From assembly GCA_944389445.1 (NCBI GenBank), contig CALXMJ010000129.1:1-34805 (forward strand): a DNA stretch of 34,805 nt, in the 5' to 3' direction. The stretch is from an uncultured Victivallales bacterium (GTDB lineage: Bacteria; Verrucomicrobiota; Lentisphaeria; Victivallales; UBA1829). Below the pieces are notes generated by a model. It was given only the letters and a program-made list of their open reading frames with translations. It made no database searches and was not told the DNA's origin. Shown here one piece after another: positions 5,526 to 28,286 of the stretch (within the stretch, counting starts at the first letter, position 1; the number at the start of each line of letters is the position of its first letter). The translations under genes were made by a program, and so were the position numbers.

Positions 5526-5560
5526 GATCCGCCTATTTCCGATCTGCCATGTTTCCGATT

Positions 5561-5577
5561 GGGAAAGCCGATTTCCC
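5561..5577 (+). terminator. possible terminator after the AraC gene
   Basis: GGGAAA, 5-nt loop, TTTCCC, about 35 bp after the AraC stop. A T-run begins only 10 bp later, so termination efficiency is doubtful. It separates the AraC gene from the large operon. Confidence 0.3.
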
Positions 5578-5627
5578 TTCATTGCCGTTTTTTCTGAAGA
5601 TTTTATTTTTCATACTCATTTTTTTGC

Positions 5628-5655
5628 TTGAAATCCTTTCTTTTCAGGATATTTT
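5628..5655 (+). promoter_or_regulatory. candidate promoter for the GTPase operon
   Basis: TTGAAA, 16-nt spacer, TATTTT, lying in an AT-rich leader (5578-5690) that contrasts with the GC-richer coding sequence. It is placed 42 bp before the ATG at 5697. Spacing is suboptimal and other -10 choices (TACTAA at 5656) exist. Confidence 0.3.
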
Positions 5656-5696
5656 TACTAAAAATTTTCAAAACAATTCGAAAGAGAGTTTCATTT

Positions 5697-7511
5697 ATGG
5701 CGGAATGGTATTACAAAAAAAACGGCGTTTCGGTCGGTCCGTTCAATGAGGATGATCTGCTTCTTCTGATCCGCCAGGGCCGCGTGAACGGGAACTCCAT
5801 TTTGCGGGACAGTTCCGAGTTCGTCTGGAAAACCGCATCCGATTTTCCGGAACTTGCACCTTATTTTCTGGAAACGGAAGAGGACTCCTCCGAGGTTGCA
5901 GCGGAAATCCTTTCGGTGGGCAATACGGATTTCAAGTTCTCCTGTCCGGTCTGTCATCAGAATTATACGGGGGCGATCGCGCTTTATGAAGGACAGAAAA
6001 TCATCTGCCGCCATTGTTCCGCGGAAATCCGGATTCCGACCGGAATCACTTCGCCGGAAGCCGTTCCGGAAATTCTGCCGGAAGAGATTCCCGAAGGAGA
6101 AATTCTCTGTCCGCACTGCTGGAAAACGTTTCCGCGACAGTATATCATGTATATCAGTACGCATCCTTCCCTGATTGGCGATCCCGTCTGCGGCGAGCAC
6201 GAGCAGACACGTTTTTTCCCGGTGGTATTCAACTCCATCGGGCAGCCTCTTGATTCCGAAGGGATGGTCTGTACCGATATGGCGTGCCCGCATTGCCATC
6301 TGCGTCTGCCGGCGAGTATTGTGGATCTGAATTCGCTCTATTTTTCCATTGTCGGAGCACCCGCCAGCGGGAAATCCTATTTTCTGACGGCATTCACCCA
6401 TATTCTGCGGAAAATTCTGCCGGAATCGTTCGGCTGTTCTTTTATGGATATTGATCCGCAGATGAATTCCATGTTGAATTCGTATGAGGAAATGCTGTTC
6501 ATGTCCGTTTCCAGGGACAGGTTTGTCGCATTGCCGAAGACTCAGCAGATCGGGGAAGGATTTTCCAACCAGATTTTCATGAACGGTATGGCGGTGGATC
6601 TTCCGAAACCATTCATTTTTGAGATGAAACCTCTGTTTTCCTCGGGAAAGGAAAAACACCTGAACGTGATTTTCTATGACAATGCGGGAGAACATTTTCA
6701 GCCGGGCAGCGATGTCGTCATGAATCCGGCAACTCAGCATCTGTCCCATTCCAACGGCATCATCTTCACTTTCGATCCCACTGCGGATGCCTCCATGCGC
6801 AGGGAGTGTGACCGGAACGATCCCCAGGTTGCGGAAGCCCTCAAAATCACAGACCAGAACGTCCTGCTCTGTGAAATGATCAGCCGTCTGCGCAGACATG
6901 CGAATCTCCGGACGGATGAACGCTATCCGGTTCCCTGTGTGGTGTGTGTCGCCAAACACGATGTCTGGAGTTCTCTTCTGGACAGGAATCTGCGTGAGCT
7001 GAATCCCGTCCGGACGAATCCCGACACTCTGGAAGGCACCCTTGATACCGATCTGATTCTGGATGTCTCCTTTGGCGTCCGGGAACTGCTTCTGAAGGCG
7101 AATCCGGCGATTGTCAATACAGCGGAATCCTTCTTTGAACATGTTGTATACATTCCGGTCAGCAATTTCGGAACTCTGGCGACGAAAAACGCCAATGGCG
7201 CCATCGGCATCATCCCGGAAAACATCCATCCGCTCTGGACGGAAGTTCCGTTCCTCTACCTGCTCTGCAAACTGGACCTGATTCAGAAAACAAAACCGTC
7301 TGCGTCCTCCCGTGTCCAGCCAATGCCAGGATGCAGAATCGTGGACAACATGCTCGTCTTCGAGCATCCGGAAACTCATCACCGGGTGATCCTTCCGCTG
7401 GAATATTGCGGGGCGTGTCTGACCATTGCGGGAAACCGCTATCGCCTCCCGGAAAACGAACAGGAAAAATTCGTAAAACGGAAAAACGGAAATGACAGTT
7501 TCTGGGATTGA
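5697..7511 (+). CDS. GYF_2/zinc-ribbon/TRAFAC-type GTPase (DO-GTPase2-like)
   Basis: 604 residues from the ATG at 5697, which has AGAGAG upstream. Residues 1-50 form a GYF_2 (DUF4339) domain (WYYKKNGVSVGPF), a peptide-binding module. A zinc ribbon follows (C83-C86, C104-C107) and then further cysteine pairs (C138/C141, C165, C192, C197/C200). The GTPase core has a P-loop at residues 220-227 (GAPASGKS), a G3-type DNAGE (D328..G331) after a hydrophobic strand, and a G4-like AKHD (419-422). This layout matches the DO-GTPase2 or 'TRAFAC clade GTPase' proteins that occur beside GAP1 genes. It has no membrane segment and should work in the cytoplasm as the nucleotide-dependent switch of the operon. 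The assignment to GTP rather than ATP rests on the AKxD motif. Confidence 0.8.
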   Translation: MAEWYYKKNGVSVGPFNEDDLLLLIRQGRVNGNSILRDSSEFVWKTASDFPELAPYFLETEEDSSEVAAEILSVGNTDFKFSCPVCHQNYTGAIALYEGQKIICRHCSAEIRIPTGITSPEAVPEILPEEIPEGEILCPHCWKTFPRQYIMYISTHPSLIGDPVCGEHEQTRFFPVVFNSIGQPLDSEGMVCTDMACPHCHLRLPASIVDLNSLYFSIVGAPASGKSYFLTAFTHILRKILPESFGCSFMDIDPQMNSMLNSYEEMLFMSVSRDRFVALPKTQQIGEGFSNQIFMNGMAVDLPKPFIFEMKPLFSSGKEKHLNVIFYDNAGEHFQPGSDVVMNPATQHLSHSNGIIFTFDPTADASMRRECDRNDPQVAEALKITDQNVLLCEMISRLRRHANLRTDERYPVPCVVCVAKHDVWSSLLDRNLRELNPVRTNPDTLEGTLDTDLILDVSFGVRELLLKANPAIVNTAESFFEHVVYIPVSNFGTLATKNANGAIGIIPENIHPLWTEVPFLYLLCKLDLIQKTKPSASSRVQPMPGCRIVDNMLVFEHPETHHRVILPLEYCGACLTIAGNRYRLPENEQEKFVKRKNGNDSFWD

Positions 7512-7523
7512 GGAAATGTGCAG

Positions 7524-10106
7524 ATGCTGGAGTTGATTCATACATCCGTTCCACAGGGGTTGAAGGAAAACAGTTCCGGATTCTGTTCCGTCGCCTGGAC
7601 CGCGGGAATGCCGGTCAACCTGATTCCTCCGCTGGAGCAGCTGAGTGCCTACCGTGCACTCTATCCGTTCGGTGATTCCAGATACGAGCTGAATCCCGTC
7701 TCCATTGCCTACCAGCGCATCCGATACGGCGGCACAACTCTTTCCGTGCTGAGCCGAACCGCTTCCGCCGGGCTCGATTACTCCGGCAGAAGCAATAAGA
7801 TCGCTCATCAGATCCTGTTTGAAAAGGATGAGATCGCGGCGCCGGATTTTTCCCCGGTCGCCCTTGCCCGGAACAGCCGGACATTCGTCACGGAATGGAA
7901 TCGTCCGCCGGAGGAGCTTCCTCCCCGGCACATTGCGGCTCCGCGAGAACTTCTCCGTCCGGCGGCCAACTGGGGAAAGGCCGCTGGCAGTCCGGTTTGG
8001 GCGGGAATCGTCGCGGAACAATTCCTGAAGAATCCTTCCAAGGCTGTCTATGTGGAATACCCGGAGGGATTTTCCACAAGCGTGCTCCTTCTGCTCGTTG
8101 CGGAAATCACATCCCTTCTGACGAACGAACAGGAAACGGACTTCACGTTCAACACCTACTTCACTTCGCTGCCCAACGGAGGAGCCTGTTTCCTGCGGTT
8201 CTGTCCGAAAGGAACTCCCGCGCTCCGTTCCGCCGAACGGATCGCCTCCACCCCGGTCATCCGGTTAATGGAGAAAAATGCATTTTCTCCCGGGCGGGAA
8301 AACTCCTACTGGGGAATCTATGCCCGGACCGGAACACCTCCGGAACACCGTGCCTTCTCCTCGAAGGAACCCGATTCTCTCCTCGAACCGGATCTTCTCC
8401 CGGAAATAAAACCGTCTCTTCCGGAAACACCGGAATCCAGCACGGCAAAACACGATCCGCACCGGGACTATCTGCAGGCGGAAAATATCGTTCTGCGGAC
8501 ACGTCTTGAACAGAGCAGGCGCAGGCAGCAGCTGATTCTCGGCATTGCCATCCTGGCGGCGGTCGCCGCGGCTGCGATCGCAATCACGATTCTGCTGTTC
8601 ACCCGTTCCGATTCTCCTCCGGAAATCCCGGATCCGGCTCAGCCGGGCATCGAACAGGTTTCAATGGAAAAAACACGGAACATCCCGGTCCCCCAGCCGG
8701 AGAAACAATCCGCGGAAACGGAAAAAACGGTTTCATCCGCCGCGCCGGAACAGAATCTCCCGCAAAAGAAAGAGGAACCCGAATCAATGCCGACGCCGGT
8801 CCAGCCGACTCAGTCGACTCAGCCGGTCCAGCCGGTCCGGAAAGAGACCGTGCGGAACAGAATTTCCACACCGTCATCAAAATCTCTCTTCCATCTTCTG
8901 GAGCAGATCGCGGCGAAAACAGGGGAGGAAGAGACCTTTTCCTTGGAATGTCTCCTGCCTCCGGAACTGGCAAATGCGGAGGATCTTACCGTTCGTTTGA
9001 ATTCCATTGGAGGAAACACAGCAAAAAAAATTGTGAAGCATCTGCCGAAATACATTCGGAAAATTCCCGGAGGAGTCCGGATTCTTTCCACTGCCAACAT
9101 TCCTAAAGACGGAATATACGACTATGTTCCCGTACCTGAAAATTTTCTGGAACTGACGGTCGGGAACCAGCGGCTTCACATTGCGAAAAAAGCTGGCGGC
9201 ACCGGCACGAAAATCGACTTTCCCGTTCTTACGGATATCGCTTTTCTGATCTTCAAGGGTTCGACCGAGATTTCCGTACCGCTTGCCTTGACTCCGGAAA
9301 TGGTCGGCGCCCTTCCGTTCGGTACGCTGGAAAAAGGTTCCTCGACCCGGTACGATTTTGTCTTTTCTTCCGATTCCAGGCAGCCGTATTACTTTATTTA
9401 CCGGAAAAGCCAGGAGGAAGAGCGCTTTCTCTCTTTTCTTTCCTTCCGCTTTGCAAAACAGGATGCGCTGTTTCAGACGTTTGAGAACTGGAACGCCATT
9501 CAAAGGAACCGTACCCGCAATTCCCGTCCGGATTTCTCCAAAGCGGAAAATCTCCTGAAGCGCCTGAACGCACTGGTGAAAACCATTTCCGGTTTTGAAA
9601 AGAGATATTCTTCCTTTTACAGCGAGACCGATCCCGTCTGTTTCGGCGGAATCGGCAGCAGCCGGAATATGGAACAGGCCGAAGAACAGGTCAAGGCCTT
9701 CACCAGACGGAAAAAACAGTATGAGGAGTTCATGCGTCTGGAGGAGAGAAAACTCGAACGGAAAAAACAGAAAAAAGAGGTTGAACTGTTCGATGAAACC
9801 AGAAAGAAATTTGAAGAGCTGAAGGATTTCAGCACAGCCAACAAAGAACTTCTCCGGAATATCGTCGCCCGCAGTCAATACCAGCTCCAGAGACAGAAAC
9901 AGGCGGATGCGGAAGCCAAATTACAGGAATTTCTCCTGAAACAAATCCAGAACCTGCCAATCCAGGACAAAGAAAAAATCAAGAAGGCAGTCAACAGCAA
10001 ACAGCAGCTTGCCCTGTTCCGCGACGGACCGAACCGCAGCAGGGAACTGGAACAGTATTTCACCCGGACATGGGTCGTGCGAACCGTAAAACAGAGGCGG
10101 AAATGA
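7524..10106 (+). CDS. GAP1-like GTPase-associated protein with transmembrane anchor and coiled coil
   Basis: 860 residues. The ATG at 7524 has GAGGA nine bases upstream, overlapping the previous stop; the GTG at 7518 is too close to it. The first ~300 residues match my knowledge of GTPase-associated protein 1: HTSVPQGLKENSSGFCSVAWT, a following LEQLSAYRALYP, and DYSGRSNKIAHQILF, then an alpha/beta middle part. GAP1 is known mainly by its gene association with DO-GTPases; its mechanism is uncertain. A single membrane helix lies at 337-361. It is followed by a Pro/Gln-rich linker (about 370-445), a mixed domain, and a charged coiled coil at about 715-830. The N-terminal part should face the cytoplasm and the GTPase, with the remainder extracytoplasmic. 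The stop overlaps the next ATG (ATGA). Confidence 0.72.
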   Translation: MLELIHTSVPQGLKENSSGFCSVAWTAGMPVNLIPPLEQLSAYRALYPFGDSRYELNPVSIAYQRIRYGGTTLSVLSRTASAGLDYSGRSNKIAHQILFEKDEIAAPDFSPVALARNSRTFVTEWNRPPEELPPRHIAAPRELLRPAANWGKAAGSPVWAGIVAEQFLKNPSKAVYVEYPEGFSTSVLLLLVAEITSLLTNEQETDFTFNTYFTSLPNGGACFLRFCPKGTPALRSAERIASTPVIRLMEKNAFSPGRENSYWGIYARTGTPPEHRAFSSKEPDSLLEPDLLPEIKPSLPETPESSTAKHDPHRDYLQAENIVLRTRLEQSRRRQQLILGIAILAAVAAAAIAITILLFTRSDSPPEIPDPAQPGIEQVSMEKTRNIPVPQPEKQSAETEKTVSSAAPEQNLPQKKEEPESMPTPVQPTQSTQPVQPVRKETVRNRISTPSSKSLFHLLEQIAAKTGEEETFSLECLLPPELANAEDLTVRLNSIGGNTAKKIVKHLPKYIRKIPGGVRILSTANIPKDGIYDYVPVPENFLELTVGNQRLHIAKKAGGTGTKIDFPVLTDIAFLIFKGSTEISVPLALTPEMVGALPFGTLEKGSSTRYDFVFSSDSRQPYYFIYRKSQEEERFLSFLSFRFAKQDALFQTFENWNAIQRNRTRNSRPDFSKAENLLKRLNALVKTISGFEKRYSSFYSETDPVCFGGIGSSRNMEQAEEQVKAFTRRKKQYEEFMRLEERKLERKKQKKEVELFDETRKKFEELKDFSTANKELLRNIVARSQYQLQRQKQADAEAKLQEFLLKQIQNLPIQDKEKIKKAVNSKQQLALFRDGPNRSRELEQYFTRTWVVRTVKQRRK

Positions 10107-13100
10107 GCAAAATTACAGAATTGATCTCCAAAATGTACGCATTTCTTGACAGTGCGGACCAGTCCAACACTCCGGAAATGCGAGAGGTTTCCTGCCGTTT
10201 CGCCGCGCTCTGCCGCGAGGTCAACGACGATCTGGAACATGCGGATGCATTCCTGAAAAAGGGTCTCACCATTGATGCGTTGAAATTCGACAAGGAGCGC
10301 CATCCTTCTCTGCTTTCCCGTGCGGCAGCCTTGAATATCAAGCGGTTCGAGGAATGGTGCATGGTCTGCCGCCTTTATGAAAACTGGGAATCCCCTCAGC
10401 CGATCAATCTGGATATCGTCCGCCGGATGCATGACGCTTACCGCAGTACGGGAATGCTGGCTCCCCTGCTGGAAAAATGGCGGGCAATCATGCGCGACGG
10501 ATCCACCGGAGAAAAGCTGGAGATTCTCCGCGGCATCTGCAAGCTGGACCCCTCCAATAAAGCATGGACGGCCAATCTTGCAAAACTGGAACTGGTCCGG
10601 CTGGAAGAGTTATACGACGAAGCAAAAGAGGCAATCCTCCGCAAGGATTATGTCGGTCTGGAAAAGCTCTTTTTCGAACTATCCTCTCCGGAACTGAAAG
10701 CTGTTCCCAATGCCAAAGTCATGGAGAAAATAACCGCTGTTCTTCATGAATATCAGAAAAATCAGCTCGACGTGCGGACGCGGCGCCTGCTCAATGAAAT
10801 CGCGGAAAGCTACAGCGAACAGAATTACGACTCCCTGGTGGACCTGTTCCGTCGCTGGGAGAAACTGGAAAGCGATCCCGAATTCGAACTGCCCGCCGGC
10901 GCCGCTGCTCAGCTTGAGGATACCCGCCGCTGGATGCGGCAGGTACATGAGGAACGCGAACGGCAGGAAGAGTTCAACCTGACCCTATCCTCCCTCATCG
11001 AACATCTGGATTCGGAAGCTCCCATCCATGAAATCGAAAACCTCTATGGAAATCTCCAGAGGCTGGATCTTCCTCTTCCCGGTTTCATTATGGAACGGGT
11101 CAGCGACGCGCGCGAAAAAGCCGAACTGAAAAGTGCGCGCATTCACCGTCGCCGTCTGGTGCTTGGAGTCCTCTCCATTATCGCGGTAATCGGTATAACA
11201 GGATACGTTATTTTCTGCATTCAGGAGGAGAAGGCATACAAGGACACCCGGCGTCAAATGGAAACCGCCCTGAACACAAAACAGTACAAAACCGTGCTGG
11301 AACAGTACAAACAGCTTTCCGTTTCCGGCTCGTCTCTGGCGGAACGTCCGGCACTCCTGAAGCTCCGTGACGAGGCGCAGAAACGAATGGACATGCTTTC
11401 TAAGCTGGCATCCGATTACGAAATGGCCTTGAAGGCGGCGGAGGTCTTTCTGACTCCCCGGAGCGTGGAGGATGAACGTCTCGCGCAGCAGATTCAGATT
11501 GCGGAAAGACTGAAACCTCAGTTTCCCGTTACGGCAAAGCAGTCGGCCGCGCTGGACCGGTTGAAAATCCGCCGGGATGAACTCCTTCAGAAGCTGGCTC
11601 GCGAACGGGAAGCCGGATTCCGGAAAGCAATGGAGAATCTGGATGCGCGTCTCAGCGGATTCCGGAAAAAACTGAGCCTGAGTGCCGATCTTGTCCAATG
11701 TTCCGGCGAGCTTGCGGAATACCGCCGGGAATTGGAACGAATCACCAGTCCGGAATCCGTCCGGGGAATGGATCCGCAATACAGAGAGCTGTTCCGGAAA
11801 CGGATCGACTTTTCTTTGAAAACGCTGGAGACAACCCTGAAAACGCTGGAGGCGGAAAAGACATATCGCCGTCGCCTGGAAACCCCCTCCGGATTTCTTG
11901 ACTACATGAACGCTCTCGAAAATCTGGAAAACCGCATTCCCTCCCTTTTCCCTCTATATGCGGATGCCGTTTCCATGACGATTCCATGGCGCAGATTCAG
12001 CGACGGAATCTTCAGCAGAAAAGAACTGAATAATCCAGCCGCCTTGAAAGCTGTTTATAAAACCGCGGCGGCGGAAATGGGAATCAATCCCAATTACAGC
12101 GATCTTTCCCGTTTTGTCCCGCCGGAGATTGAGGGCGCTTCGGAACAGAATCCCTGTCCCGCGCTGACGTCCGCAATTGAAGAGCTCAGTTCCACCATTC
12201 TCAGCAAGGAATACGATTTTTACGAGATTATCCTTGAAGACGGCAACGGCAAGCAGTATCATTTTTTCTGCGACCGGCTGCCCGAGTTCGAGGAGCCGCG
12301 GAAAAACAGCAAATACCCGCGTTCGATGACTCTCTCGGTTTCCATCCGCCCCGGCAGCACATCGCCGCTTAAGCTGGAAATCAGCGGCATGTACGGGAAA
12401 ATCTTTTTACGGCGTACCGGAGAACTGAAGGAACTTCTGCTGCCCGATACCTTCGTAAAGCTCGTCAACTGCGATCTTTTGAGCCGGACTTTTCCCAAGG
12501 CACAGCATTTCATGTTCCTGAAAGATGCATGTCACGCTATCCGGAACGCCCGGACTCCGGCTCTGGCGGAGCAGGCCATCCTCTCCGCTCTCAAGAAGCT
12601 CCGCAAGGCAAAAAATATGAACGCATATATGCGCATGAATGCCGCAAAACGGCTGCTCGGCATGCTGAAGTTGACCTCGGGACTGAACAATACCGTTGTG
12701 GATGCCGCGCTGACAGCTCTGACTGCCGCAGATATCCCGGAATGGAGCTGGATGAATCCCCGAGAGGAGGTCGACCGTTCCGCGGAAGCCGCCGCGATGC
12801 GGAATGCCGTCGACAAACTTGACCCGGAAACCCTGGAGCGCTCCATCCGGTTCCACAGGGCGTTTTATGAAGCGGCTCTGTCCCGGATTCTGCATCCGGC
12901 GGCGATTGTCTCCCTCCAGGGCGGCGAACAGATTATTCCGTTCCGCGATGCGGCAGCTTCCGAAGAGCTCTGGAGCCTGGACCGGCTTCCCGGCGGAGAT
13001 TTCATCATCCGGATTTTCGCGAAACAGGACCGTAAAACCGGAACATTCCGAAAACTGAAGTCCGCGGGAAAAGCATTTCATGGAATGGTCCTGTTCTCAC

Positions 13101-13228
13101 CGGACGACCGGGAGGATACACGCGCTCTGCAGGAAAAACTGATCAAAACCTTTTCCGGTCCCGGTGAAACAATTTCGCCGGTGGACTATCCGATCCGCTG
13201 GCCTGCCAACTTTATGGATGAATCATGA
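10103..13228 (+). CDS. large single-pass membrane protein, mostly helical, family not recognised
   Basis: 1041 residues, starting in the ATGA overlap with the previous gene, so translational coupling is likely. The N-terminal 345 residues are helical, TPR-like in composition and probably cytoplasmic. One membrane helix lies at about 352-376. The remaining ~665 residues are long charged helices (coiled coil up to about residue 600), then a mixed alpha/beta part with a FVKLVNCDLLSRTFP stretch and a beta-rich final domain. I recognise no catalytic motif. The architecture parallels the preceding GAP1-like protein: cytoplasmic head, one helix, long outer arm. This suggests that the two form a paired scaffold across the membrane. 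The end overlaps the next gene by ATGA. Confidence 0.7.
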   Translation: MSKITELISKMYAFLDSADQSNTPEMREVSCRFAALCREVNDDLEHADAFLKKGLTIDALKFDKERHPSLLSRAAALNIKRFEEWCMVCRLYENWESPQPINLDIVRRMHDAYRSTGMLAPLLEKWRAIMRDGSTGEKLEILRGICKLDPSNKAWTANLAKLELVRLEELYDEAKEAILRKDYVGLEKLFFELSSPELKAVPNAKVMEKITAVLHEYQKNQLDVRTRRLLNEIAESYSEQNYDSLVDLFRRWEKLESDPEFELPAGAAAQLEDTRRWMRQVHEERERQEEFNLTLSSLIEHLDSEAPIHEIENLYGNLQRLDLPLPGFIMERVSDAREKAELKSARIHRRRLVLGVLSIIAVIGITGYVIFCIQEEKAYKDTRRQMETALNTKQYKTVLEQYKQLSVSGSSLAERPALLKLRDEAQKRMDMLSKLASDYEMALKAAEVFLTPRSVEDERLAQQIQIAERLKPQFPVTAKQSAALDRLKIRRDELLQKLAREREAGFRKAMENLDARLSGFRKKLSLSADLVQCSGELAEYRRELERITSPESVRGMDPQYRELFRKRIDFSLKTLETTLKTLEAEKTYRRRLETPSGFLDYMNALENLENRIPSLFPLYADAVSMTIPWRRFSDGIFSRKELNNPAALKAVYKTAAAEMGINPNYSDLSRFVPPEIEGASEQNPCPALTSAIEELSSTILSKEYDFYEIILEDGNGKQYHFFCDRLPEFEEPRKNSKYPRSMTLSVSIRPGSTSPLKLEISGMYGKIFLRRTGELKELLLPDTFVKLVNCDLLSRTFPKAQHFMFLKDACHAIRNARTPALAEQAILSALKKLRKAKNMNAYMRMNAAKRLLGMLKLTSGLNNTVVDAALTALTAADIPEWSWMNPREEVDRSAEAAAMRNAVDKLDPETLERSIRFHRAFYEAALSRILHPAAIVSLQGGEQIIPFRDAAASEELWSLDRLPGGDFIIRIFAKQDRKTGTFRKLKSAGKAFHGMVLFSPDDREDTRALQEKLIKTFSGPGETISPVDYPIRWPANFMDES

Positions 13229-14103
13229 ACGTTTACTTTATAAAACTCAACGGTAAAATTTTCGGTCCTTTTTCCGGCCGAAAACTCCAAAGCATGAAAA
13301 ATGCGGGTCTGATCCGGGAAGATACTCCCGTTTCGTCCGACCGCAGCAGATGGCAGCCCGCTGTGGATCTGCCCTGGCTGTATTCCATCGCGGACGCGCC
13401 TCCGGTCACTCTGGAGCCCGAAAGCGGAACGGAGAGGATTCCTCCCGGTGTTTTCCGCAGCGGTCCGGAAGGCTCTCTTCCGCCGCAGGACAAGTTGCCG
13501 GAGGTAACGGAGGTTTCCTCTCCGGACTGTATGGAGTTTTTCGCCCGGGAAATCTCTCTGATCTGGAATCCGGCATACCATGTGGCGGCAATCCGGGACC
13601 GTTTCGGCGAAAAGGGATGCCTGTGGGCTTCGGTGATCGCACTTCTGTTTTTTTTCCTGTCCACTTCGCTTTCGCTGAATCTGTTTCCGGCAATGAAACA
13701 ACTGTCGCTTTCTCCATGGAAAACGGTGGGGCTTCCGCTGTTTCTGGTCTTGTTTCTTACTTTGTATACGACATTTGTCCGGCTTTTTTTCGGCAATGAA
13801 GGCGTTTCCCGGATCCGGGCTTCGGACTTCCTCACGGCGACCGCATCGCTGGTCTGCTGGGGAGTTCTCATTCCATTTGCCGGAGTGCTTTGCAGTTATT
13901 ACTGGAAACCGGCAGGGACCGCATGGATGTCCTCGGGATATTTTGTTCTTCATCTGCTTTTTTTCTGCTGCGGGGCAATCGTTTCCACTCTCTGCTTTTA
14001 CGAGAGCTGGACGGGATTCGGATTTGTGAAAAAAACAACGGCAGTCTACCTTCTTCCATTTGTTTTTTTCTTTTCCATTTTTTTAGTCATTGTTCATTTC
14101 TGA
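13225..14103 (+). CDS. GYF_2-domain polytopic membrane protein
   Basis: 292 residues, start coupled to the previous stop (ATGA). Residues 1-52 are a second GYF_2 domain of this operon (YFIKLNGKIFGPFSGRKLQSM, WQPAVDLPWL). After a Pro/Glu-rich linker come five hydrophobic segments, near residues 135-155, 170-190, 210-230, 235-258 and 272-292. These resemble the Yip1-like membrane domains often fused to GYF_2. It probably sits in the inner membrane with the GYF domain in the cytoplasm, where it could dock Pro-rich partners or the GTPase. No enzyme motif is present. The gene ends 13 bp before the channel subunit gene. Confidence 0.72.
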   Translation: MNVYFIKLNGKIFGPFSGRKLQSMKNAGLIREDTPVSSDRSRWQPAVDLPWLYSIADAPPVTLEPESGTERIPPGVFRSGPEGSLPPQDKLPEVTEVSSPDCMEFFAREISLIWNPAYHVAAIRDRFGEKGCLWASVIALLFFFLSTSLSLNLFPAMKQLSLSPWKTVGLPLFLVLFLTLYTTFVRLFFGNEGVSRIRASDFLTATASLVCWGVLIPFAGVLCSYYWKPAGTAWMSSGYFVLHLLFFCCGAIVSTLCFYESWTGFGFVKKTTAVYLLPFVFFFSIFLVIVHF

Positions 14104-14116
14104 GGGAGATCATTGC

Positions 14117-14983
14117 ATGGAAAACAACACAAAACTGAGTTGGGAACACCTGGATATCGAGTGTCGATGCGGATTTCGGAGCAAGAAATTCACCGCGGTA
14201 AATTTTGTCTTCACTTTTATCTTCGGGACTCTGCTGACGGTTCTCTTCTTTGCCGTGCTGTTCCCGTTCCGCGGTTCCAGCACCTACATCGACATGTTTT
14301 TTCACGGTGGAGTGGAAAACCGTTCCGTAATTCCTTATTTCACCATGCTCCTTGCATTCTGGGCTGTGGCGATCCTGCTTGTGAAACTTCAGAAACTAGG
14401 AGTTCAGAGAAGAGCGCTTGCGCTGAAAATTCTTCCGCGCAATCAGAACTTCGTTCTTTCTCCGGCAACCGCCAAGGAGATTCTCGACAACATCTACAAG
14501 GAGGTGCAGACACCGAAACGTTTCCTGATCCTGGACCGCATTGAACGGTCGCTTTCCAATCTGAAAAACATCGGCAATGTAAGCGATGTTTCCGAGGGGC
14601 TGAATGCGCAGGCATCCAATGATGAAAATTATCTTTCCTCCTCCTATACGGTTTTGAAAGGGTTTATCTGGGCGATTCCGGTTCTGGGGTTTATCGGGAC
14701 CGTTCTCGGACTGGCATATGCCGTCGGCGGATTCGGAACCGTGGTCAGCAAAGGAGCGGATGTGGAAAAACTGAAACAATCTCTTGCAGGAGTCACCAGC
14801 GGACTGTCCATTGCATTTGAGACAACTCTGATTGCTCTTGTCGCCGCTCTCCTCGTCCAGCTCCTGATGACATTCGTTATGAGCAGGGAGGAGGATTTCC
14901 TCGACGAATGCAGGGATTACTGTCACAGGAATATTATCGCCAAACTGAAAACCGCTAAAATGATCGATCAGATCAGCGAGTGA
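14117..14983 (+). CDS. MotA/TolQ/ExbB-family proton channel subunit
   Basis: 288 residues from the ATG at 14117, preceded by GAGGGAG that overlaps the previous stop; an upstream in-frame start at 14090 lacks this. Hydrophobic segments lie at about 28-50, 71-93, 182-207 and 226-254. The last pair carries the family core: VLGFIGTVLGLAYAVGGFG, then LAGVTSGLSIAFETTLIALV, the usual pore-lining helices with the conserved Gly and Thr residues. A cytoplasmic loop of ~85 residues separates helices 2 and 3, as in ExbB and TolQ. Such proteins form pentamers around a dimer of a MotB/ExbD partner and convert ion flow into motion. Two candidate partners follow directly downstream. Confidence 0.86.
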   Translation: MENNTKLSWEHLDIECRCGFRSKKFTAVNFVFTFIFGTLLTVLFFAVLFPFRGSSTYIDMFFHGGVENRSVIPYFTMLLAFWAVAILLVKLQKLGVQRRALALKILPRNQNFVLSPATAKEILDNIYKEVQTPKRFLILDRIERSLSNLKNIGNVSDVSEGLNAQASNDENYLSSSYTVLKGFIWAIPVLGFIGTVLGLAYAVGGFGTVVSKGADVEKLKQSLAGVTSGLSIAFETTLIALVAALLVQLLMTFVMSREEDFLDECRDYCHRNIIAKLKTAKMIDQISE

Positions 14984-14987
14984 TTCC

Positions 14988-15851
14988 ATGTCCGCCAAAG
15001 ACGACTCCCCTCCTGTTTCTTTATTTTCCTTTCAGGACATTATCACCTCAATTACCGGAATCATGTTCCTCGTGGTGCTTCTGCTGGCATTGATTATTCT
15101 CGACAGCAGTATTCTGAACGCTCCCGGTGAAGAGACCGCTCCCCCTCCGGAACCCGCCCCGAATCTGGCAGAACTGAAAAAAAAAGTTACCGCTCTTGAG
15201 CAGCTTCTGAAGGATTCCCGGCTGGAGTTCCGGCACCTCTCCCTGCAAATGGAAAAGGCCATTCAGCTTCCTCTGGAAAAGCTGGAGGAGGATCTCGCTC
15301 TTGAACAGGAGAAAAACTCGAACCTGAAACGGAAGCTGCAGGAATCGGAACGGATCCGTCTTTCCCTCAAAAATGAAAATCTCCATCTGGAAAAAGAGTC
15401 GCTGCGCCTGACGGAAGAAAGCCGCAGACAGGACGGGCAAATCCAGCGGAAAAAAACGGAACTGGAAAAGAATCGTCAGAAGCTGGAAAAACTCCGGAAA
15501 CAACTCGAAAAACAAAAAAAACTGATCTCCTACAGCATCGACAGCGACTTCCCGAAAAAACTGCTGATCGTGGAGTGCGGCCCGGCGGGCATCCGGGTCA
15601 AGAACACCGCAACCGGCGAGATCCACAATTTCATTGACGACTCCGATCTGACCTACGCATCCTCCATTGCAAAATTCCTGAAATGGGCAAAGACTCGCGA
15701 CCGCCGGACCGAATATTTCAGCCTTGTCATTACGCCCGGCGCGTTCGGATACGCCGACAATCTCGATCAGGAACTCATTTCCGCCGGGTTCAGCAGAGGA
15801 AGAGAGATTCTGCCGTCGAACGACTCCAGAATCGTTGAGGAGGAACCATAA
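14988..15851 (+). CDS. ExbD/MotB-like subunit A with long coiled coil
   Basis: 287 residues beginning 4 bp after the channel gene. Asp17 stands at the start of a single membrane helix (residues 18-39, QDIITSITGIMFLVVLLLAL), the position of the ion-carrying Asp in MotB and ExbD. Residues 55-190 are a strongly charged coiled coil. The final ~95 residues form a small alpha/beta domain (KKLLIVECGPAGIRV, FSLVITPGAFGYADN). No OmpA-type peptidoglycan-binding motif is visible, unlike MotB or ZorB. The gene order matches ExbB-ExbD and MotA-MotB pairs. I infer that it is the plug/stator partner of the upstream channel protein. Confidence 0.75.
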   Translation: MSAKDDSPPVSLFSFQDIITSITGIMFLVVLLLALIILDSSILNAPGEETAPPPEPAPNLAELKKKVTALEQLLKDSRLEFRHLSLQMEKAIQLPLEKLEEDLALEQEKNSNLKRKLQESERIRLSLKNENLHLEKESLRLTEESRRQDGQIQRKKTELEKNRQKLEKLRKQLEKQKKLISYSIDSDFPKKLLIVECGPAGIRVKNTATGEIHNFIDDSDLTYASSIAKFLKWAKTRDRRTEYFSLVITPGAFGYADNLDQELISAGFSRGREILPSNDSRIVEEEP

Positions 15852-15852
15852 T

Positions 15853-16803
15853 ATGCCAAAGGCAAACGCCGGAGACAACAGCAGTCTGGAACTGCTTCTT
15901 GATACGATGTGCAATACGTTTGGCGCCGTCATGTTCATTGCCATCTCCCTGCTGGTTGTAATCTCCATGCTGGGAAAGGTGACCTCCTTTGCGGAACGTC
16001 AGGTGGATACCGAAGTCCTTCAGAACATGCGGGAACGGCTTGTCCAACTGGAAAATGAATATGCACAGTCCCGGAAAATGCTGGAGCTGCTCAAACCGTT
16101 CGCCGAACGACTGAAAAACGATCCCCGGCGTGAAATCCTGAACCGCTGCATGATCCTGAAAGAAGAAAACTCCCGGCTGGAAAACAGACTCAAAATCCTT
16201 CTCCTCCAGCAGGAAACCGAGGAAGCTCTCAAACGTGCCCTCCAGGAAAAAAAAGACAAACTGGAGCAGGAAGCCTCTCGGCAAAAAGAACTTTCCGAAA
16301 CTCTGGAGGAGAAACTGAAACTGATGCGGAAATCCATCTCTTTCATCTCACAAGCGCTCTCAAACCAGAAACCGGAATCCTCGCTGGTCTTCCGGCATAT
16401 GCAGCCCAGCAAGGACATTCCTTATTTCATTCTCCTGCGCCAGGGCCGCCTCTGGAGAATCGGACCCGACACCGGCCCCGAAGACAAAATCCTGATCCAT
16501 CCGGACGTCTCCTGCACTAGAGTAAACAACTCCTACCACTGCAAACCGGCTGTCGCAGGAACCGTCGTTTTGAATGAGAAAACCGGAGAATTGACCCGAG
16601 AGGCCCTTGATCTGCTCCGCCGGATCCCTGCCGGACGCTTCCCCTCGTTTCAAGTCTATTCCGATTCCGCCCGCGAAATGTTCCTGATCCGCGAGGCTCT
16701 GAAAGAGAAGAACATCCCGCACTTCTTCTCCACGTATACGGACGACCGGACCCCGGGTTTTGTCCTCTTGACGGAAAGCAATGTAAACTATGAAACAAAT
16801 TGA
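15853..16803 (+). CDS. ExbD/MotB-like subunit B, paralogue of subunit A
   Basis: 316 residues, with a strong GAGGAGG site nine bases before the ATG at 15853 and just one base after the previous stop. Asp17 again opens the single membrane helix (LLLDTMCNTFGAVMFIAISL). A coiled coil follows at about 60-175. The C-terminal ~130 residues have the same order of elements as subunit A: a short strand (IPYFILLRQGRLW), a middle insertion with a disulphide-capable Cys pair, then a strand-helix-strand (FQVYSDSAREMFLIREAL). It looks like a diverged duplicate of subunit A, which suggests that the plug of the channel is a heterodimer. A role as an independent homodimer cannot be excluded. Confidence 0.72.
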   Translation: MPKANAGDNSSLELLLDTMCNTFGAVMFIAISLLVVISMLGKVTSFAERQVDTEVLQNMRERLVQLENEYAQSRKMLELLKPFAERLKNDPRREILNRCMILKEENSRLENRLKILLLQQETEEALKRALQEKKDKLEQEASRQKELSETLEEKLKLMRKSISFISQALSNQKPESSLVFRHMQPSKDIPYFILLRQGRLWRIGPDTGPEDKILIHPDVSCTRVNNSYHCKPAVAGTVVLNEKTGELTREALDLLRRIPAGRFPSFQVYSDSAREMFLIREALKEKNIPHFFSTYTDDRTPGFVLLTESNVNYETN

Positions 16804-16845
16804 ATTACCACGGAACACTTCCGTTCCGAACGGGAAAGGACACTC

Positions 16846-17565
16846 ATGAATCCGAACAGCATTTACAATCCCGGCGATAAATTCAACCGGATCCGCCCAT
16901 TCTGCATTCTCGCTCTGCTGATTCTGCTCTTTCTGCTCCTGCTTTTTCTTGCACCGTCGGATTCCGCGGGGAAAAGCAGTGTGAAAAAGAATCCTCCGCG
17001 CCACGAAACGGCGGGGAAGGGGTCCGGTTCCGGCAGCGGCGGAGGCAGCGGTAACGCCATCGGGAAAGGGGCCGGTACCTCCGCTTCGCAGAATGCCGCG
17101 AAAGGCAGGGCTTCCGACAGTGCGGAGAAAGGGGCAGGCAGCAATGCGGAAAAGGGGAATGTGGAAAATAATCCACGGCCGACTTCTCCTCAGCAGTCCG
17201 CATCCGGGACCGTCTCTTCCGCCGGCGAGGGCAGGACAGAGAAAGACAAAAAAGAGATTCCCGCGCCTGCTCTTCCTGTCAAACAGTGGAAATCAACCGG
17301 GAAACCGACTCGTTCTGAAGCGGAAATCTGGTATTACGCCAAACTCCACATACGGAACATCGCCAAAGACAAACGGGACGTTTTTGAATTTCCCGAATAC
17401 GGGGCGCCCGATACCGGCATGAAAAAAAATTCCGGGAACCTCTACACTGTCTTTGGCTTCTTCAAGCTGAAAACGCATGACGGCAAAGAAAAAATGTACC
17501 GATTCTCCCTGAAAATCGACCTGGCCAGCTACCTCTGCCACGATCTGGAAATCAAAGACCTGTAG
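16846..17565 (+). CDS. membrane-anchored protein with Gly/Ser/Lys-rich linker and small C-terminal domain
   Basis: 239 residues, with AAGGA six bases before the ATG. A short cytoplasmic start is followed by one membrane helix (17-36). Next comes a low-complexity linker of ~100 residues rich in Gly, Ser, Ala and Lys, with repeating KG-A-G units. The last ~85 residues (from EAEIWYYAKLHIRN) look like a small globular beta domain with a YTVFGFFKLKTHDG strand pair, reminiscent of short secreted domains with the pattern 'W..a...ik..L..p....Fp'. I cannot name the family. It is the last gene of the operon and ends 8 bp from the convergent vWA gene. It probably extends a domain through the periplasm. 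Confidence 0.65.
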   Translation: MNPNSIYNPGDKFNRIRPFCILALLILLFLLLLFLAPSDSAGKSSVKKNPPRHETAGKGSGSGSGGGSGNAIGKGAGTSASQNAAKGRASDSAEKGAGSNAEKGNVENNPRPTSPQQSASGTVSSAGEGRTEKDKKEIPAPALPVKQWKSTGKPTRSEAEIWYYAKLHIRNIAKDKRDVFEFPEYGAPDTGMKKNSGNLYTVFGFFKLKTHDGKEKMYRFSLKIDLASYLCHDLEIKDL

Positions 17566-17573
17566 CGGAGTTT

Positions 17574-18269
17574 TCACATCCGGACCCGGTAAACTCCCCG
17601 GTTTTCCTTCGCGAGCCGGCGGAGAAGATTGGATTCTCTGCCGATGGCTATGCAGTTGATTTGGATCTTCCGTTTGGAATTCCAGGCGTTGACCATCCGC
17701 AGGACATCCGCTTCCGTACAGTCCGTCGGTTCGCCGTCGGTCAGGAAAAAAATGGTATTGATTTCATTTTCATCCGTCAGGCCGAAAACGGCGTTCCAGG
17801 CGGCTCCCATGGAAGTCCCCCCGTTGGCGGTCAGTTTCTCGATGTGCCTGAGTGCTGTTTCAACGTGAAGAATGCTGTTGAACGGATAAAGCGACTTTTC
17901 CGGTGGAAAATATTTGACGCTGCTTTCATATTCCACAAGAAAGAAGGAGCCGCGCGCAGTCTCCTCTCCGGACTTCTGCGGACGCAGTGTAAGCATGGAG
18001 ATCAGCTCTTTCTTCATCGCCTCTATCCGGGAGAGTCCTTCCGGGGTCTGGGTGCCCATCGAACCGGAAAGGTCAATGATGAAGATGATCTTTTCATTTT
18101 TATTGACCGGAATTCCATAAAAAGAGCTTTTTCCTCCGCCGGAGCTTGTCTTCCCGACATCATAGGAAAGCGGCGTTTCCTGTTTTTTCCGGGGAATGGA
18201 AAAGGTGTCCACTCCGAAAACACAGACACACCCGAAAATCAGCAGCAGAAGCGATAACCCGGTTCTCAC
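17574..18269 (-). CDS. secreted von Willebrand factor A (vWA) domain protein
   Basis: 231 residues from a GTG start with a strong GGGAGGAG site upstream. The N-terminus is a signal peptide (hydrophobic residues 5-20) with possible cleavage after Gly19; the FGC sequence is a poor lipobox. The vWA domain spans about 58-231 and keeps all metal-site residues: D66-S68-S70 (DLSGSMG), T152 in GGTSMG, and D178 in FLTDGEPTD. Such domains bind protein ligands through a divalent metal. The gene lies on the opposite strand, 8 bp from the end of the GTPase/channel operon. vWA proteins are common partners of this kind of NTPase system, so it may be the outer partner, but it is on its own transcript. There are no extra C-terminal domains. 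Confidence 0.82.
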   Translation of the reverse strand: MRTGLSLLLLIFGCVCVFGVDTFSIPRKKQETPLSYDVGKTSSGGGKSSFYGIPVNKNEKIIFIIDLSGSMGTQTPEGLSRIEAMKKELISMLTLRPQKSGEETARGSFFLVEYESSVKYFPPEKSLYPFNSILHVETALRHIEKLTANGGTSMGAAWNAVFGLTDENEINTIFFLTDGEPTDCTEADVLRMVNAWNSKRKIQINCIAIGRESNLLRRLAKENRGVYRVRM

Positions 18270-27509: not shown

Positions 27510-28286
27510 TTATTTGACCAGAATATCCTGCGAATAGGCGAGTCCGGTGGCATTCCAGACAGAATTGGTATATCCTGTATTCATGAAAGGTTGTGATTTC
27601 GTGTAGAAAAGATTCGCACCTTCATATCCGAACGCCAGAGCCCGGTATCCGACGACATGTCCATCGGAGAAAAGCGCGTTGGCACTTCTTTCGCCTGCGT
27701 GCCAGGGATAAACGGATGAGACCGTATCCGACGTAGACGCCCAGCCGTTCATATAAATATGCGGATAGGAACCGTATGCCCCGTTCTTGTTGAGAATCCG
27801 CGAATCCGCGAACAGAAGATAATGCGACGGTTTCTTCACCGCGCCCAGCCGCCGCGGACTGGACTGCCCGAATACAGCATTGAACCCATAGGAGTTCCAC
27901 TGAAGACAATCATTGGACACATTCAAGCTCTTCTTTTTATATTCGTTTCGCATGTAAGTGGACATAGTGACAGAAGGACAGATCATTACATCCCAGGAAA
28001 TCCATTTGTTGACCAGAAAATATCCGACATTGTATCTGGTATGCTTGATGATTGCCTTGTCAGAACTCGAACCGCCCGAACCGATCAGCATCGGAGGCAG
28101 ATAACGGCTCATCGTTTCATCGGTATAGAATACAACCGCTTTCCCGTAGGTGCTCAGATTGTTGACACAGGAGATGTTCCTTGCCGCATCCCTTGCTTTC
28201 GTCAGAGCCGGAAGCAGAAGCCCTGCCAAAATTGCAATAATTGCAACTACGACAAGAAGCTCTATCAGTGTAAAATTTTTCCTCAT
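27510..28286 (-). CDS. type II pseudopilin-like protein (prepilin-type N-terminus, DUF1559-like)
   Basis: 258 residues with AGGAG upstream of the ATG. The N-terminus is a perfect prepilin signal: a short basic leader (MRKN), then [20 protein letters not shown] with Glu5 of the mature protein, followed by [20 protein letters not shown]. The rest has the DUF1559 pattern, with a late [18 protein letters not shown] motif. Such proteins are processed by a prepilin peptidase and inserted into the inner membrane. They are very numerous in PVC bacteria, often next to glycosidases and sulfatases; their task is not established. It lies between the GntR regulator (12 bp) and the GH2 gene (19 bp), so all three are probably one operon. 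Confidence 0.85.

Follow-up and report, generated by a model that had tools for sequence, protein, structure and literature searches.

An operon of an uncultured Victivallales bacterium joins a GTPase and a GAP1-like partner to a MotA-family channel with two membrane-anchored subunits, B1 and B2. It was found in a window of 34,805 nucleotides (contig CALXMJ010000129.1), the whole stretch of DNA analysed here. We propose that the operon may encode a GTPase-gated, ion-driven, trans-envelope force machine, like that of Myxococcus in logic, not in family, and we put the probability of this reading at roughly 45 per cent. Such a system would probably let the cell switch a force-generating surface machine on and off. 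What was observed is a conserved gene set with its domains, the conservation of residues for nucleotide binding and in the channel, the membrane segments detected by hydropathy and the co-inheritance of the genes.

Organization of the operon

Eight co-directional genes occupy positions 5697–17565 of the forward strand (table 1), and a von Willebrand A (vWA) gene on the reverse strand converges on them. Neighbouring genes overlap by ATGA at 10103 and 13225 and are otherwise 1–42 bp apart; coordinates, strand and spacing are as the earlier note had described them. Hydropathy analysis gives one transmembrane (TM) segment each for GAP1, M1041, B1, B2 and the anchored protein, four for MotA and five for the GYF protein, and a single N-terminal hydrophobic segment for the vWA protein.

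Table 1. Features of the operon and of the converging vWA gene.
Feature	Position	Strand	Description
GTPase	5697–7511	+	604 aa; N-terminal GYF_2, two zinc-ribbon CxxC pairs, DO-GTPase2-like P-loop domain (Pfam)
GTPase P-loop (G1)	6354–6377	+	residues 220–227, GAPASGKS (alignment)
GAP1 partner	7524–10106 (alternative start GTG 7518)	+	GAP1-N2 and GAP1-M inside, one TM (341–359), long outer coil (Pfam, hydropathy)
M1041	10103–13228	+	1041 aa; helical-repeat N-terminal part, one TM (352–370), large outer part
GYF_2 membrane protein	13225–14103	+	five predicted TM helices (Pfam, hydropathy)
MotA/TolQ/ExbB-family channel	14117–14983	+	288 aa, four TM (Pfam MotA_ExbB, 17-sequence alignment)
B1 subunit	14988–15851	+	TM with invariant FSFQDI (Asp17 at 15036–15038), coiled coil, small alpha/beta C-domain (alignments, AlphaFold2)
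B2 subunit	15853–16803	+	TM with invariant LLLDxMCNxFG (Asp17 at 15901–15903), coiled coil, C-domain (alignments, hhalign)
Small anchored protein	16846–17565	+	TM, Gly/Ser-rich linker, short C-domain (changeable tip)
vWA protein	17574–18269	-	predicted exported; intact-looking MIDAS motif (Pfam VWA)

The Pfam models GYF_2, GAP1-N2, GAP1-M, MotA_ExbB and VWA found matches. GAP1-N2 (2.2e-22) and GAP1-M (3.3e-7) lie in the protein whose gene adjoins that of the GTPase, and GYF_2 is present in the GTPase (1.3e-7) and in the membrane protein (7.4e-7). For the GTPase domain itself the match to DO-GTPase2 (PF19993; 3.8e-5, 23.9 bits) falls just below the 27-bit gathering cut-off, but G1 (GAPASGKS), G3 (DNAGE), G4 (KxD) and the CxxC pairs are kept in an alignment with 10 relatives. 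The expected domains are thus clear for GAP1, and for the GTPase they take the form of a sub-threshold match with conserved motifs.

Neither M1041, B1 and B2 nor the small anchored protein could be placed convincingly in a family of Pfam, NCBIfam or PADLOC, and the weak matches of these four seem to be coiled-coil noise. The weak PADLOC matches of B1/B2 and GAP1 (JetC, LmuB, PD-T4-6) seem to reflect coiled coils or low complexity. M1041 accompanies the GTPase and GAP1 in most relatives; its AlphaFold2 model (pLDDT 86) consists of helical repeats and beta-containing outer parts, for which a fold search returned no confident structural match. Elsewhere in the window, a protein with a prepilin-type N-terminus is encoded on the reverse strand (27510–28286); we take it to be of a kind common in Lentisphaeria.

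The channel and its two partner subunits

The MotA protein matches MotA_ExbB (PF01618) at 2.7e-10. Residues Thr195 and Thr237 are invariant in all 17 aligned sequences, and we read them as the positions where ExbB and TolQ carry channel threonines; the threonine ring of such channels is described in PMC12204202. B1 and B2, encoded next to MotA, each have a single N-terminal TM segment with a conserved aspartate (Asp17) held in a motif that is invariant in the alignments (FSFQDI in B1, LLLDxMCN in B2). The two proteins are homologous along their full length (hhalign 99.3%, E 2e-20, with the coiled coil as part of the signal), which makes a B1–B2 heterodimer within the channel pore likely, as has been discussed for AglQ and AglS.

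The description of B1 and B2 as ExbD/MotB-like in the earlier note holds for their N-terminal TM segment with its invariant aspartate and for their place beside MotA, but not for their profiles: no Pfam ExbD or MotB model matched, and hhalign against the ExbD proteins of relatives was not significant. These results do not support membership of the ExbD family (PF02472). The AlphaFold2 model of B1 (pLDDT 84) comprises a TM segment, a coiled coil and a beta-beta-beta-alpha-beta-alpha-beta domain, the order of whose elements presumably resembles that of the periplasmic domain of TolR and ExbD. In a Foldseek search with B1, ExbD was absent from the best 50 matches, and only weak RNase H-like matches were returned; PDB sequence searches gave nothing useful.

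Recurrence and inheritance of the operon

GAP1-N2 is present in nine of the 41 genomes of the window's kin, in which the order GTPase-GAP1-M1041-(GYF)-MotA-B1-B2 is kept wherever contigs are intact. The operon order also recurs, far above chance, in a genome of the same genus and in other Victivallales, Lentisphaeria and Planctomycetota. A conserved neighbourhood, on which the earlier note had made its interpretation depend, thus exists in PVC bacteria for the GTPase-GAP1 pair together with the MotA genes.

A profile scan of named genomes recovered 441 relatives of the GTPase; the best 80 of these, which were taken further, include the cultured Victivallis vadensis DSM 14823, other Lentisphaeria, Planctomycetota, Kiritimatiellota and Desulfamplus. 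Among 149 Lentisphaeria genomes, 24 of the 33 close MotA relatives (E < 1e-90) have a GTPase gene 2.3–9.9 kb upstream on the same strand. Six of the nine others start 0.1–6.3 kb from the contig start, and one of the nine (G027) lies 6.2 kb from the contig end. Six more distant Lentisphaeria MotA relatives have no upstream GTPase, the four examined being stand-alone MotA-B1(-B2) sets. Stand-alone sets without a GTPase are located at L124–L127 and L135–L141, and MotA is about 500–560 aa long in several of them. Among 246 Planctomycetota genomes, nine close relatives of MotA were found and the GTPase occurs in 13 genomes; seven genomes have both, in one of which the two genes are on different contigs. 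Over 32 complete loci, pairwise gene-tree distances correlate at r 0.69–0.89 (permutation p 0.001), values that are inflated by shared host ancestry. The Desulfamplus loci (L098:504-1295, L111, L112) carry GTPase-GAP1-M1041 with a divergent B2 upstream, and MotA-B1 elsewhere beside apparently unrelated genes.

Within the genus, both flanks of the operon occur together in two genomes. The operon is present at the same site in G003. The equivalent of window positions 5527–15323, that is the first five genes and the start of B1, is missing from G002 (C126; L142:3677-6750), a draft genome with 8% contamination that still has B2, the anchored protein and the vWA gene along with the 3' end of B1. 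G001 does not have this arrangement. Because these flanks are shared, we conclude that in this genus, as far as draft genomes show, the operon is inherited vertically at a fixed site and is able to decay. A mobile island is ruled out here by the operon at the same site in G003 and by the retention of the site in G002.

Anchored tip proteins and the vWA protein

The vWA protein (Pfam VWA, 1.1e-9) is split from the anchored protein in the window and fused to the TM-Gly linker in relatives (L014, L017, L030 and others). Judged by these fusions, the vWA gene belongs to the operon system. The interpretation in the earlier note stands as regards the conserved operon of PVC bacteria and needs to be amended elsewhere: B1 and B2 are not detectable ExbD/MotB members, and the vWA gene, which it had set facing the operon, is part of the system.

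B2 is followed, in the dozen or so loci that could be read, by a gene encoding a TM segment, a linker composed of 48–77% G/S/N/T/A and then varying outer domains, often vWA. These tip proteins look anchored rather than exported as cargo, and the SHLS motor-binding motif is absent from the TM segments of all 18 that were tested. Two tip-type proteins follow B2 at L118:15627-18259, one with weak squalene-cyclase-like repeats (0.0042) and the other with an unassigned outer domain.

MotA and the GTPase of the window are 89% and 80% identical to those of G003. Identities of 72–93% are found for MotA, the GTPase, the TM parts of the B subunits and the cytoplasmic parts of GAP1 and M1041, against 50–65% for the outer parts; flanking proteins are 65–85% identical. 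This pattern is consistent with an engine that is kept constant and outer surfaces that change quickly.

Two variants of the operon

The relatives fall into two variants. The stator type has a long GAP1 with a TM segment, M1041, usually a GYF protein, MotA-B1-B2 and often a TM-Gly-rich-vWA protein. The pilus type has a DO-GTPase, a short TM-less GAP1 and M1041, followed by PilM, T2SSM-like (GspM-like) and GspC-like genes. Its PilM matches PilM_2 (Pfam, down to 1.6e-23) and the NCBIfam Amuc_1101-like PilM model (3.6e-26), is often long and is perhaps a PilM-PilN fusion; the T2SSM and GspC matches are weak. The pilus type was observed at L061:9449-18965 and at about 15 further loci (e.g. L064, L068, L084), and is present in the cultured Oligosphaera ethanolica. 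On a GTPase tree of 88 rows, 34 of them too short in sequence to type, a single change suffices to account for each variant. The pilus type forms one supported group, mostly with short branches; the stator-type rows have longer branches, some of which are unsure. The presence of the same core beside PilM, T2SSM-like and GspC-like genes in the sister clade leads us to conclude that this core repeatedly partners envelope platforms.

Comparison with known systems

The GTPase-GAP1-GYF half has been described by Kaur et al. 2020 (PMC7159879). The resemblance lies in a DO-GTPase2-like GTPase with zinc ribbons and a Walker B glutamate, a GAP1-N2/GAP1-M partner with a C-terminal TM segment and a multi-TM GYF protein, reported there for planctomycetes. 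Unlike those systems, the operon has neither the FNIII partner (no operon protein has a Pfam FN3 match) nor the listed effectors, and it has M1041 and the MotA-B1-B2 motor; the main text of PMC7159879 contains no MotA, TolQ, ExbB or ExbD. The other half resembles the PVC vWA force transducers of PMC12204202, which have a tolQ-like gene, two different tolR-like genes, a TM-linker-vWA protein and a helical-repeat gene nearby. That paper, however, does not mention GTP, GTPase or GYF, and the tip proteins of the operon type lack the SHLS motif.

The gliding machine of Myxococcus (MglA/MglB, AglRQS/Glt, CglB) likewise combines a GTPase and its partner, one MotA-like and two B subunits and a vWA protein, and its GTPase module is able to serve type IV pili too. 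The GTPase families differ, however (DO-GTPase2 here, not MglA), AglQ and AglS match ExbD PF02472 (PMC3169522) whereas B1 and B2 do not, and a Pfam scan of the operon revealed no Glt-type domain. Membership of the Agl-Glt family is rejected on the GTPase match and on the lack of a PF02472 match in B1/B2, and the two machines at most work alike. Zorya (ZorAB) shares a MotA-family protein and the TM aspartate of the B subunit, but the operon, with a MotA of 288 aa, has no ZorA tail, no OmpA-like ZorB domain and no ZorC, ZorD or ZorE; Pfam and a defence library gave no OmpA-like, helicase or nuclease match to its proteins.

The earlier note had regarded the combination as unknown among characterized systems. 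No description of the whole was found in the open-access literature (main texts), although its halves have been published separately (PMC7159879; PMC12204202); the joint system is new as far as we found.

Proposed function and alternatives

In the proposed machine, five MotA subunits would form a ring enclosing a single helix from each of B1 and B2 (5:1:1), and the TM aspartates of these two helices would carry protons or sodium. Together with GAP1 and M1041, which spans the membrane, the DO-GTPase in the cytoplasm would form an on/off switch that engages the motor, with GYF domains and zinc ribbons as putative adaptors. The motor would pull or turn a TM-anchored, glycine-rich arm tipped by a vWA or other binding domain, so that force would reach the outer envelope or a surface ligand. 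In its logic the machine would resemble MglA/MglB, AglR/AglQ/AglS and CglB of Myxococcus, which serve surface adhesion or movement. Both a zinc ribbon and a GYF domain are present in GltJ of Myxococcus.

We favour the force machine because gene order and co-inheritance are conserved, the MotA threonines and B1/B2 aspartates are invariant and the GTPase motifs are retained; because the genes after B2 combine a TM segment, a Gly-rich linker and a changing outer domain; because in the sister clade the same core goes with PilM, T2SSM-like and GspC-like genes; and because the outer parts change quickly whereas those in the cytoplasm and the membrane are conserved. Precedents from Myxococcus also argue for it: MglA-GTP works both on type IV pili, by way of SgmX, and on the gliding motor, by way of AglR and GltJ (PMC7668184, PMC12288465); AglRQS pairs a single MotA-like subunit with two that are MotB-like (PMC9120999); and CglB serves as an adhesin of the vWA type (PMC13104615). 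That the GTPase controls an ion-powered envelope machine, as the earlier note had suggested, gains plausibility from the TM aspartate kept in both B subunits and from the coupling of the same core to PilM/GspM/GspC-like genes. Against the force machine, no operon protein is detectable as a member of the Agl, Glt or Mgl families, B1 and B2 have no ExbD match, and no outer-membrane component is encoded near the operon. A role that is dispensable, or one in conflict, would also fit the patchy distribution of the operon and its decay in one relative. Motility has, to our knowledge, not been reported for these organisms.

A conflict (anti-phage) system of the DO-GTPase/GAP1-N2 kind, whose GTPase would release the MotA-B1-B2 channel as a Zorya-like sensor-motor or a membrane-depolarizing effector, is the less likely but most serious alternative. 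GAP1-N2 systems are classed as conflict systems (PMC7159879), ZorA is the sole defence-library match of the MotA protein (8.6e-6), GAP1-N2 is patchy among the relatives, the longer branches of the stator type suggest fast evolution, and the operon is partly deleted in G002. However, the operon has no nuclease, helicase or toxin gene, MotA lacks the long ZorA tail, the B subunits lack a peptidoglycan-binding domain, and the sister variant is tied to pilus and secretion genes. A defence-gene neighbourhood, for which the earlier note had proposed to look, was not found around 21 loci: at most two of 66 flanking proteins match defence models at 1e-10, one of them a helicase, read as RecQ, that took 17 of the 18 matches, the remaining one being a weak mad2 match. 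The flanks mostly encode metabolism, repair and transport, on which ground we reject a defence island.

A Ton/Tol-like energizer, in which the motor would drive a TonB/TolA-like vWA arm for cargo or outer-membrane upkeep with the GTPase as stress sensor, appears improbable. PVC clusters of TPR, tolQ-like, two tolR-like and vWA genes have been proposed as such transducers (PMC12204202), and DO-GTPases have been linked to membrane stress (PMC11237479), but the lack of SHLS in the tip proteins, the absence of receptor, Pal and TolB genes from the operon and the separate ExbD genes of the source genome argue against it. Least probable is a GTPase-controlled export or assembly platform, in which the stator would replace PilM/GspM/GspC-like parts as the energizer for secreting surface proteins or pseudopilins: the pilus-type clade does place the same core beside such genes, but the stator-type operon has no secretin, ATPase or pilin gene and its tip proteins look anchored.

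Returning to the force machine, a bolder version can be put forward tentatively: in PVC bacteria, a modular GTPase-GAP1-M1041 switch, plugged in evolution into two different envelope engines, could be an independent equivalent of the polarity/motility switch MglA of Myxococcus. One engine would be a heteromeric ion motor (5:1:1) whose adhesive arm is changeable, the other a PilM/GspM/GspC pilus-like platform. The proposal unites two unexplained published observations, the GAP1-N2 GTPase systems and the PVC vWA motor clusters, in one testable machine, which is present in the cultured V. vadensis DSM 14823. If it is true, GTPase control of an ion-driven envelope motor would have evolved outside the myxobacteria, and it would become questionable to read all GAP1-N2 GTPases as conflict systems.
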